Source: Thermosipho sp. (in: thermotogales)
Lineage (GTDB): Bacteria; Thermotogota; Thermotogae; Thermotogales; Fervidobacteriaceae
Assembly (NCBI GenBank): GCA_017656335.1
Contig: JACDOA010000001.1
Coordinates: 62,001-126,000 of the forward strand
Length of the DNA stretch: 64,000 bases
Direction of reading: 5' to 3'
Shown here piece by piece: positions 28,959-32,764 of this stretch; position 1 is the first letter of the stretch, and each line of letters opens with the position of its first letter. The position numbers and the translations under genes were made by a program. The notes under the pieces were generated by a model, which searched no databases, was not told the origin of the DNA, and saw only the letters and a list, made by a program, of their open reading frames with translations.

Positions 28959-31424
28959 TCATTTATCATTCAAAATTAATAACAAATCATCCATAATATA
29001 AGGATCAGTATTTTTACCTCCACCAAAAACATAAGCTTTAGGTTGTTCTTCTATAGGTCTAAATCTTGATTCAACTCCGTCATAATCCCAGGATGTAATA
29101 TAAATTTTCCAACCATCGAAACTTTCAGGATTATTCAAAACAAAACCTTTTAAAATTATTTTAATCCAACCATTTTCAATTAAAATATCCGGAGATGAAA
29201 TTTGATTTCCAAAATTATTTTCATTTGCTCCTTGATTTGTAAAAAGTGCTGAAGACCATCCAGTTATAAATATCTCATAATTCCAATCTTCTATTTCGTA
29301 ATTTTGAAAGGGTAACTTTCTAGATCCTACTTTTCTAGGATCATCAATAAAGATTTGATACGTTACATGATCAAATCCATTTGGAGGATTCCAACTAGTT
29401 GTTAAATCTCTTGGTTTAATATAAATTATTAACGTTGATCCTATCTTTTCAACTTTTGCTCCTACAATATCCATTTGTCTTTTAAACGATGGATCAGTTG
29501 GATACAAGTATTTACCATATGGACCTATATCATCATCTAATGGATCTAGTGAAAATGCTAACTCCTTCTTTTGAATATCTACTACAAAGCACATTTCATC
29601 TAAATACTGAATTTCTTTGATGCTATTTCCTCTTAATTTAAATAATATTTTGTGTTCACCAGGATCAAATTTATAAGGATCAATTATAAAAGAAAACTCT
29701 CCATTTTCAACTTTAATTTTCTTTTCAGAACCATAAATTCCATCTAAGTAAAAATAAACGTATTTTGCATTTGTTTGCCCACTTACTTCAAATTCTTCCT
29801 TAATTATTTCTCCTTCTTTTAAATTTATTGAAAAATCGAATTTATTAATTCTAACTTCTTTTTTTCTATCTGTAATTTTATATACAACCAAACTTCTTTC
29901 TGGCACACTAACAACAATATTTTTTGATTCTTTCACAACCAAATCGTATGATTGACCTCTAAAATTATAAATTGGTTCTAAAATTGAACCGGGAACAAGA
30001 TCTAATTTTATATTTGCTACTTTCTTTATATCAGATGTATTCATCACTACGAAAAGTTCCTCAGATTCAGATTTTAAGAAGTAAGCCAAAATACCAGATG
30101 AATTCTCAGAATATACTGGTACTACTTTTCCATATCTGGTTGCAGGATGCTGCTTTCTAAAAGCAATGATATTTCTAATAAATTCATATAAATCATTATT
30201 TTTGTCAAAATGATCCACATTGTTAGAACCCCAACCTGTTTTAAACATAGAAGCTCTTGTTTCAATAAAATATTGTTCAGTACCGTAATAAATTACAGGC
30301 ATTCCTGGAATAGTCATAATAAAAAGCAAAGCTTGCTTTAAAACATTAGGTTGTGTGCCTTTTAAAAATCTTTCCATGTCATGGTTATCAATAAATGTAA
30401 CTAATAATCCTTTATTTAATAATTGATTTCTTCTTTCTAATCGGTAAGCTAAATATTTTGTTGGTTGTCCACCTTTTATAACTCTTTTTATTTCTTCATT
30501 TAATGGAAAGTCAAGCATTGCATTAAAGCCATAATCAAAATAAGTTTCAATCTCCTTTTCTGCTTCATCACTTAAAGGTTTAGAAGTAAGCCACACTTCG
30601 CCAAAAGAAATAAAATTTTCTTTTTGTGTTCTTATCCCATCTTCATTTAAAAAGAAATCTTTCCAAAAATTTTTAGGAACATACATGGCAGTATCTACTC
30701 TAAAACCATCAACATCAACTTCTTTGATCCAATACTTATAAGAATCTTTTAAAATTTTCTGTACTAAAGGATTTTCTGTATTTAAATCATCTAATCCTGA
30801 AAGTTGAAAATTCAATTTTTGATTTTTATCTTTATAATCTTTTATATCCTCTGTCCAATGATAAATATTCATTTCACGCTGAGATAAATCATTATAATTA
30901 TTCATATTAAAAGGATATTGAGTTGGTGCACTTGTTGGAATACTTTTTTCATTAATCTCAAATTTTCCATTTTTAAATCTAAAGTAATTTCCAACATGAT
31001 TAACTACAATATCTTGAATTAAAAACATGTCATTCTCATGTAAAATTTTTGATAATTTTTTATAATCTTCAAGACTTCCAAAATGTTCATCCACTTTTTT
31101 AAAATCCCTAGCCCAGTAACCATGGTACCCACTATAATTCACCCATGGATCCCACCATTGATTGGCAACAGGAGGGGTAATCCAAATACCATCTACACCT
31201 AAAGCTTTTATATAATCAATTTTATCAATTATTCCCTGTAAATCTCCACCACTGTATTTTCTATAATCTTTAGGATTAAATTCTCCAAACCCTTGATCGT
31301 TATTCGACAAATCGCCATCATTGAAACGATCTATCATTAAAAAATAAATTACTTTATCATTCCAATTTGAAAATATTAAAACCGAAAAAAATAAGATATA
31401 CAAAAAAATTAAGACTTTTTTCAT
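28959..31424 (-). CDS. Secreted GH13 alpha-amylase-type enzyme with C-terminal glucodextranase-like domain
   Basis: An 821-residue exported amylase. Signal peptide ~1-19; the (beta/alpha)8 GH13 domain follows to ~480: VIYFLMIDRFNDGD, DIVVNHVG, DGFRVDTAMYVP (nucleophile Asp), ISFGEVWL (acid Glu) and FIDNHDMERF (third Asp). A beta-rich linker (~480-610) is followed by a C-terminal domain (~615-820) beginning DPLDDDIGPYGKYLYPTDP and ending near the stop, typical of the glucodextranase C / DOMON-like module. It probably degrades starch or pullulan outside the cell, feeding oligosaccharides to glgP-type metabolism. Its ATG overlaps the upstream PCC gene (ATGA). Confidence 0.92.
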   Translation of the reverse strand: MKKVLIFLYILFFSVLIFSNWNDKVIYFLMIDRFNDGDLSNNDQGFGEFNPKDYRKYSGGDLQGIIDKIDYIKALGVDGIWITPPVANQWWDPWVNYSGYHGYWARDFKKVDEHFGSLEDYKKLSKILHENDMFLIQDIVVNHVGNYFRFKNGKFEINEKSIPTSAPTQYPFNMNNYNDLSQREMNIYHWTEDIKDYKDKNQKLNFQLSGLDDLNTENPLVQKILKDSYKYWIKEVDVDGFRVDTAMYVPKNFWKDFFLNEDGIRTQKENFISFGEVWLTSKPLSDEAEKEIETYFDYGFNAMLDFPLNEEIKRVIKGGQPTKYLAYRLERRNQLLNKGLLVTFIDNHDMERFLKGTQPNVLKQALLFIMTIPGMPVIYYGTEQYFIETRASMFKTGWGSNNVDHFDKNNDLYEFIRNIIAFRKQHPATRYGKVVPVYSENSSGILAYFLKSESEELFVVMNTSDIKKVANIKLDLVPGSILEPIYNFRGQSYDLVVKESKNIVVSVPERSLVVYKITDRKKEVRINKFDFSINLKEGEIIKEEFEVSGQTNAKYVYFYLDGIYGSEKKIKVENGEFSFIIDPYKFDPGEHKILFKLRGNSIKEIQYLDEMCFVVDIQKKELAFSLDPLDDDIGPYGKYLYPTDPSFKRQMDIVGAKVEKIGSTLIIYIKPRDLTTSWNPPNGFDHVTYQIFIDDPRKVGSRKLPFQNYEIEDWNYEIFITGWSSALFTNQGANENNFGNQISSPDILIENGWIKIILKGFVLNNPESFDGWKIYITSWDYDGVESRFRPIEEQPKAYVFGGGKNTDPYIMDDLLLILNDK

Positions 31425-31849
31425 TGTTCACCCCTCCAATTTAAAGGTCTAAAAAACTCTCCTTTTTTTCTTATAAGTTCAATTTGAATAATCTTTATAA
31501 ATAACTCAACCGTATTGCAAACTTTTGCTTTAAACAAATGACCTCCAATTACATTTTTATCAGAACCTGCTAAAGCAACATGTAAATGAGGGGAAATTTT
31601 ATCATCTTTTAGAGATATATTACCAGTCAATGACAATAATTCGTAAGGTTCTTCAAAAAATGCTATCTCATATTGTTTTTTGTCAATATTAAAATACCCA
31701 ATTTCGAAATCTTTTAGCATTCCAATTCCAGACAATATTATTGCAGAAGTAATATTTTCTTTTTCAGAAACTTTCAAAAGAATATCAAAAAAATCCTCAT
31801 TATTATCAATTCTTAAAAATAACAAGTTATCTTGAATTTTATAAATGAT
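31421..31849 (-). CDS. PCC/PPC-domain (DUF296) protein; ATC start
   Basis: A PCC-domain protein (DUF296), the trimeric fold found in plant AT-hook proteins and in stand-alone bacterial forms. Motifs: TSAIILSGIGMLKDFEIGYF and HLHVALAGSDKNVIGGHL with the conserved His/Gly residues. The first usable standard start is TTG at 31825, which has no ribosome site and would cut off the first strand. GGGAGG at 31862-31857 is followed, after exactly 7 bases, by ATC (31849), giving IIYKIQDNLLFLRID, the expected N-terminus. The function is unknown; a DNA or nucleotide ligand is possible. Confidence 0.78.
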   Translation of the reverse strand: MIYKIQDNLLFLRIDNNEDFFDILLKVSEKENITSAIILSGIGMLKDFEIGYFNIDKKQYEIAFFEEPYELLSLTGNISLKDDKISPHLHVALAGSDKNVIGGHLFKAKVCNTVELFIKIIQIELIRKKGEFFRPLNWRGEQ

Positions 31850-31888
31850 TTTCTCACCTCCCTTTAATGAATATTCATAAAATGTTTA

Positions 31889-32713
31889 TTAAAAACTTTT
31901 TTCATACAAATCTGAATATTGAAAAAGATTTGATAAAATTTCAGAAAGCATTTTTGAAAAATACTTGATTATTCTATTATCAAACGCATCTTCCCTTTCC
32001 CAACTATCCAAGGTTAAAAAACCAATACATTCATTATCCTTAAAAATTGGAATTGATATTAATGATTTAATACGAGCTAAATTACCACACTTAATTAAAA
32101 TTTCTGTGATTTCTTTTTTTCTTTTTGTCGAAAAATGATATTGCTCTAAAACTTCATCAAGTTTAATAACAGTTACATTTTCAAATCTCTTTGGATGAAA
32201 ATCAGATTTTCTTAATTTTAATTTTTTTAAACCTTTAATATCATGGTTATAAACACTTATAAAACTAAAAAAACCGTCTTTATCTTTTAAAATTAAACTT
32301 GCTGAATCAACATTTGGAAAAATCTTTACAAATTTTTCTGAAAATCCTTTCCAATCTTTTTTAGAAAAAGCACCTGTAAAAATCTTTTTTATATATTTCT
32401 TTTGAATTTGATTCAAAAATTCCAAAGTATATTTATACAATTCAATCTCTTTTAGTTTTGAAATTTCTTGAAAAGAATAAAGTTTGCAATCATCATCAGT
32501 GGTTATAGCAACAACTTTAAAAATTTTATCCTTATATTCAAACTCAACTTCAATATCATAATTGTCAATTATTTTTTTCTCATTTTCTGCCAAAAATAAT
32601 TTAAAAATAGTTTCCGCAATCTCATTTTTATACTTCGTATGTACAATCTCGTATCCGTTAATTTTGCTTAAAACAACTATATCAGAAAGTTTATTAAGTA
32701 ATTTTTCAAAGAT
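31889..32713 (-). CDS. GAF-domain-like sensor protein; ATC start
   Basis: About 275 residues. The C-terminal ~150 (from FTGAFSKKDWKGFSEKFVKI on) look like a GAF domain: SASLILKDKDGFFSFISVYN, then SLISIPIFKDNECIGFLTLD and a closing helix. The N-terminal half is a PAS-like or unclassified region. It has no output domain. GGGAGG (32726-32721) lies 7 bases before ATC at 32713, which gives IFEKLLNKL; TTG at 32731 sits at the predicted transcription start, before the ribosome site, and is rejected. First gene of the operon with the PCC and amylase genes. Confidence 0.72.
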   Translation of the reverse strand: MFEKLLNKLSDIVVLSKINGYEIVHTKYKNEIAETIFKLFLAENEKKIIDNYDIEVEFEYKDKIFKVVAITTDDDCKLYSFQEISKLKEIELYKYTLEFLNQIQKKYIKKIFTGAFSKKDWKGFSEKFVKIFPNVDSASLILKDKDGFFSFISVYNHDIKGLKKLKLRKSDFHPKRFENVTVIKLDEVLEQYHFSTKRKKEITEILIKCGNLARIKSLISIPIFKDNECIGFLTLDSWEREDAFDNRIIKYFSKMLSEILSNLFQYSDLYEKSF

Positions 32714-32735
32714 AATATCTCCTCCCTTCAAGAAA

Positions 32736-32764
32736 ATTATACTACAAAAAATAAAAAGTTAATT
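32736..32764 (-). promoter_or_regulatory. Promoter of the GAF-PCC-amylase operon
   Basis: On the minus strand TATAAT (32741-32736); the -35 region is AT-rich and weak (TTAACT at 32762-32757, only 15 bases away). Transcription would start near 32729, so the leader before the GGGAGG is only a few bases long. Confidence 0.5.

Follow-up and report, generated by a model that had tools for sequence, protein, structure and literature searches.

Initiation at non-AUG codons of the kind considered here is already known from infC, from the GTC start of sigR, from the ATC start of rnhC and from Deinococcus deserti. The gene infC, which encodes translation initiation factor IF3, is the textbook example of a gene with an AUH start (ATT, ATC or ATA); of all departures from AUG, a codon that matches at A and U and differs only in its third base is the mildest. 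The starts of the two neighbouring Thermosipho genes described here, one GAF-like and one encoding a PCC domain, resemble the infC start, found in the same genome, in that infC has a strong Shine-Dalgarno (SD) sequence and an AUH codon that is kept across species while its third base drifts. In contrast to IF3, neither the GAF-like protein nor the PCC protein is known to act in initiation, so no feedback is evident. In 2010, Baudet et al. reportedly found several non-canonical initiation codons in D. deserti by N-terminal proteomics; several genes are concerned in both organisms, through experiment there and through comparison here. In vitro, E. coli IF3 lowers correct AUU initiation with the anticodon CAU (31% full-length at 1.5 μM IF3; PMC10158994). 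In Streptomyces, the GTC start of sigR is repressed by IF3, which was shown by experiment and bears on the sigma/anti-sigma balance (PMC5472188). The sigR start is like those in Thermosipho in its extended SD (AGGAGGTG), in its genus-wide conservation and in having been missed by annotation, but it is GTC rather than AUH and its control was established experimentally, whereas ours is a sequence comparison (PMC5472188). In Listeria monocytogenes, the infC ATT is fixed and the rnhC ATC is confirmed, and a change of the rsbW start from ATG to ATA or ATT is reported to reduce translation (PMC13068326). AUH starts are fixed in conserved genes in both organisms, but rare starts concern six conserved genes in Listeria, less than 0.3% of its core genes (PMC13068326), against about 2% estimated in Thermosipho. 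In the literature searched, the size and the conservation of the Thermosipho set of AUH and CUG starts seem to be new.

The window analysed is a 64,000-nucleotide stretch of a Thermosipho sp. genome, and its features that concern us are as follows.

32736..32741, minus strand: probable −10 element TATAAT of the GAF-like gene; the TA-AAT columns are invariant in 8 relatives
32721..32726, minus strand: SD sequence GGGAGG of the GAF-like gene; score 18.5, spacing 7
32711..32713, minus strand: predicted start codon ATC of the GAF-like gene; spacing 7, with ATT or ATC aligned in 8 of 8
31889..32713, minus strand: GAF-like gene, 274 aa from ATC; weak Pfam GAF matches
31857..31862, minus strand: SD sequence GGGAGG within AAGGGAGGTGA, PCC gene; score equal to the top SD score of the sample
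31847..31849, minus strand: predicted start codon ATC of the PCC gene; spacing 7, aligned with ATG in L003, L004 and L006 and with TTG in L005
31421..31849, minus strand: PCC-domain gene, 142 aa from ATC; PF03479, E 4.8e-33
28959..31424, minus strand: alpha-amylase-family gene with an ordinary ATG start, which overlaps the PCC stop

The first-pass annotation had proposed that each of the two genes carries GGGAGG, 7 bases and an in-frame ATC, and direct reading of the minus strand confirmed the coordinates. In the GAF-like gene, GGGAGG (32726-32721) is followed by the spacer AGATATT and by ATC (32713-32711), in the context ...TTGAAGGGAGGAGATATT ATC TTT GAA, and the frame is open to TAA 31889. 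In the PCC gene, GGGAGG (31862-31857) is followed by TGAGAAA and by ATC (31849-31847), in the context ...AAAGGGAGGTGAGAAA ATC ATT TAT, and the frame is open to TGA 31421. Both frames are open from upstream of the SD to the stop, and neither holds a usable standard start: the only ATG, GTG or TTG codons are TTG 32731, 5′ of the GAF SD, and TTG 31825, which lies 8 codons inside the PCC gene and has no SD. Counted from GGAGG to the start codon, 7 bases is the most frequent spacing here: it occurs in 279 of the 631 standard starts that have an SD, against 9 for 4 bases and 30 for 10 bases, so the position of ATC after the SD in both genes is not chance. The SD of the PCC gene equals the top score (25.5) among 680 standard-start genes, and that of the GAF-like gene (18.5) stands at the 68th percentile. 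Each ATC adjoins a second AUH codon, ATT 32716 before it in the GAF-like gene (distance 4) and ATT 31846 after it in the PCC gene (distance 10); both the spacing and the alignment with relatives favour ATC as the probable start.

In this genome, about 22 bases separate the TATAAT of the GAF-like gene from its start. No −35 match was found for this promoter, and the consensus scan did not list the TATAAT. The transcript would begin near 32729 and carry some 16 nt ahead of the start codon; such short leaders (11-17 bases) are frequent in Thermotoga maritima (PMC3636130). With a transcript start predicted near 32729, TTG 32731 would fall outside the message. This bears on the rival view that translation starts at the closest standard codons, TTG 32731 and TTG 31825, a view that gains some weight from how often TTG serves as a start here (TTG/TTG accounts for 52 of 330 standard orthologue pairs). 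Neither codon is suitable, however, as the first-pass annotation had argued. TTG 32731 precedes the SD, lies no further downstream than the predicted transcript start and lacks conservation, and TTG 31825 has no SD, would remove the conserved first strand and aligns with the start of no relative. We consider initiation at these TTG codons barely credible.

The PCC protein matches PF03479 with 114.4 bits (curated cut-off 25). The codon aligned with its ATC is ATG in three relatives (L003, L004 and L006) and TTG in one (L005); for L006, ATG GTT TAT ACA TTT AAA GAT AAT aligns with ATC ATT TAT AAA ATT CAA GAT AAC. In addition, residue 13 of a solved PCC relative, 2dt4, aligns with residue 11 of the ATC-initiated protein and with residue 3 of the would-be TTG 31825 product. 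The number of residues before the conserved core in solved PCC proteins is thus close to that given by the ATC start, while TTG 31825 would leave two. The aligned ATG codons and the N-terminus of 2dt4 place the PCC start at ATC, in the position of an ATG. Within the family, the PCC gene was found only in this genome and in G006. Its AUH start is not shared by the relatives and is so far present in this genome only, where it is known from one draft assembly, with no second intact copy of the gene in the genus. In G006, about 2.1 kb splits the first 45 codons of the PCC gene from the rest (L002 and L006, G006:C1:1746481-1749027); the split looks like an insertion, and the first part retains the ATG start.

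Full-length relatives of the GAF-like protein come from three congeners and from four species belonging to a second genus. The aligned starts are ATC in this genome (G000), ATT in G001, ATC in G003 and ATT in G002 within Thermosipho, and ATC in G014 and ATT in G007, G010 and G012 within the second genus. The AUH codon is therefore present in 8 of 8 genomes across two genera, this one included, and in each of them it lies about 7-8 bases behind an SD, with no standard start that fits the SD. Between the two genera the proteins are about 28-33% identical, a divergence at which an unconstrained third base would have turned into G. An in-frame ATG does occur inside the SD in G007, but a one-base indel puts it out of frame in the sister genome G012; since an indel between the SD and the ATT shifts the upstream frame, the G007 ATG is not a common start. 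These alignments indicate that the weak start of the GAF-like gene is old and is kept in all relatives, and its presence in all eight genomes is the strongest hint of selection that we found. The assignment to the GAF domain is itself a weak one, as the window protein falls below the curated cut-off of Pfam GAF (PF01590/PF13185) and PF01590 gives weak matches in 5 of the 8 members (best E 0.00085); in other genera, the C-terminal part has matches among proteins that contain GAF. A profile search of the genome contigs with the GAF alignment returned only two congeners, both already known. The GAF-like gene of G012 (L017/L078, G012:C1:456004-456799) is frameshifted after about 220 codons and is either a pseudogene or an assembly error.

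The alignment of N-termini that had been proposed as a check thus supports both ATC positions. An error of base calling or assembly that turned ATG into ATC deserves mention, since the assembly is a draft of 33 contigs and the genus offers no other intact PCC gene for comparison. Against such an error, eight independent genomes all show AUH at the GAF start, and the same pattern recurs for many other genes in four genomes, which makes it very improbable. For the PCC gene taken alone, a miscalled ATG is still conceivable. Taken together, these results suggest that the two genes very probably undergo genuine AUC initiation with normal fMet-tRNA and belong to a group of weak starts found across the genus. 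A strong SD helix at the best spacing would hold the 30S subunit, and the normal initiator tRNA (CAU) would pair with the A and the U of AUC and be mismatched at the third base, so that the first residue would be formyl-methionine and not isoleucine. AUC would have replaced ATG in the PCC gene, and the GAF-like gene would have retained an old weak start. Translation probably starts at both AUC codons with low output, and from known biology this output would be expected to fall when IF3 is abundant, as for infC.

The frequency of such starts was estimated in a sample of 795 kb (45% of the genome) with 710 coding ORFs, in which SD sites were sought without using the start codon. An initial SD scan, run before filters for coding potential and neighbouring starts were added, yielded 178 SD-like sites, most of them internal. 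Stricter scans left 15 genes with a strong SD and no standard start. AUH stood exactly at the best-scored site in 7 of the 15, where codon use predicts 1.5 (binomial p = 0.0003); among the others, AUH was one codon away in 2 and CTG was found in 2. With hand-found cases added, about 15 genes with AUH or CTG starts occur in this 45% of the genome, the two in the window and about 13 more. We estimate from genes picked by a strong SD and partly sorted by hand that about 2% of Thermosipho genes may use AUH or, less often, CUG starts. Ten candidates were traced into three congeners, and nine of them keep AUH or CTG wherever the gene is found, while one changes to ATG or GTG.

TPR protein: ATT/ATT/ATC/ATT in four Thermosipho
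GAF-GGDEF protein: ATT/ATT/ATC/ATA
GGDEF protein: ATT/ATC/ATT
rseP: ATA/ATT/ATA/ATA
antiporter-like gene: ATA in all four
pth: ATA in all four
pilin-like gene: ATT/ATT/ATT/ATA
glycosidase: ATT/ATT, with weak SD spacing
membrane protein: CTG in all four
Pit-type permease: ATT here; GTG, ATG and ATG in the congeners

The first-pass annotation had offered two explanations for a pair of AUC starts in one operon, relaxed start selection and shared IF3-sensitive control. Under the second, both AUC starts would have been co-selected, and the GAF-like gene, the PCC gene and perhaps the amylase gene would follow IF3. The amylase ATG overlaps the PCC stop as ATGA (31424-31421), and its translation may be coupled to that of PCC. 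Two adjacent AUC starts in one operon agree with shared control, as does the AUH start of infC in the same genome, which makes an IF3 feedback loop probable, and the IF3-repressed GTC of Streptomyces sigR provides a precedent (PMC5472188). On the other hand, the GAF-like gene is followed by the amylase gene without PCC in two congeners (L008 and L009), no PCC remnant was found between the two genes in L008-L010, and the GAF-like gene keeps AUH in congeners that lack PCC. Since this is so and the PCC relatives start with ATG, a shared IF3 switch for the operon is weakened; moreover, AUH starts occur in many unrelated genes, and at about 2% a neighbouring pair is not very unlikely. RNA structure around both starts amounted to weak hairpins only. 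Shared control is therefore unlikely, and wide use of AUH across many genes of the genome, the part of the proposal that stands, fits much better.

In an independent comparison, orthologues in this genome and in 800 kb of G003 were tabulated and sorted by hand. Among pairs with a conserved SD, 10 of 406 have a non-standard start in both genomes, and 2 show an ATT/ATG switch. Most entries first listed as non-standard were discarded by hand, being internal SD-like words or having an ATG one codon away. The start was retained in 9 pairs and switched in 2 for AUH, compared with 17 and 25 for GUG and 52 and 14 for UUG. AUH is thus retained more than GUG (p = 0.02) and like UUG (p = 1), and because its retention is no higher than that of UUG, special selection for weakness is not proved. 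At G000:C2:106356 (pair a506) and G000:C2:288816, ATT in this genome is aligned with ATG in G003, and these are recent ATG/ATT switches. Outside Thermosipho, exact AUH was found in 0 of 356 genes in 400 kb of G011 (Fervidobacterium-like, the genus being inferred) and in 2 of 349 genes of G010, both samples being too small for a firm contrast.

Across the Thermotogales, infC has ATT, ATC or ATA behind an SD in 20 of the 20 genomes examined, including this one. rseP has AUH in the four Thermosipho and in G006, G010 and G014, and ATG in remoter genera where the start is clear. For pth, the four Thermosipho share AUH with four species of the second genus; G006 has TTG, and in more distant relatives the start is mostly ATG, TTG or GTG. 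The distribution of rseP and pth suggests that several genes went from a standard start to AUH in this branch and stayed there. A search for an unusual initiator tRNA found all the expected features present, namely the anticodon CAU, an anticodon stem with three G-C pairs (GGG/CCC) and an unpaired 1:72 (U and U). Similarly, a search for a change in IF3 that would relax start choice found the conserved C-terminal-domain positions identical in the Thermosipho group and in other Thermotogales. Nothing in these sequences suggests a change in the decoding system.

The AUH class may serve control or may simply be tolerated. One form of control would be that selection holds about 2-3% of Thermosipho genes on AUH (and a few CUG) starts, so that their output tracks the level of IF3, itself set by the AUH start of infC; such a set would include pth, rseP and signalling (GAF, GGDEF) proteins. 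We regard this as tentative and on the doubtful side. A genus with about one gene in fifty on a conserved AUH or CUG start is a natural test bed for the role of such starts, the alternatives being that a hot, AT-rich organism simply tolerates them where the SD is strong and that they serve graded IF3 control. The GAF-like gene, pth, rseP, the pilin-like gene and the TPR protein are ready targets, and the ATT/ATG switch pairs suit reporters. In addition, most annotation and gene finders take ATG, GTG and TTG only, so that proteins with AUH starts are recorded as truncated or are absent.

Three further starts were observed. The SD of pth (L145, L134-L136; G000:C1:355011) is formed by the last lysine and glutamate codons of the upstream gene, AAG GAG GAA GAA TAA, and the ATA start lies just after the end of that gene; G006 has TTG there. 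At G000:C1:386509-387072 (a576/a667), a possible CTG start is shared with G003 and falls within the overlapping end of a second conserved ORF. The membrane protein at G000:C1:383575 and its congeners (L153/L150/L144/L148) has CTG behind GAGGAGGG in every one of the four Thermosipho. An upstream start is impossible in G002, where the codon just before the CTG is a stop.
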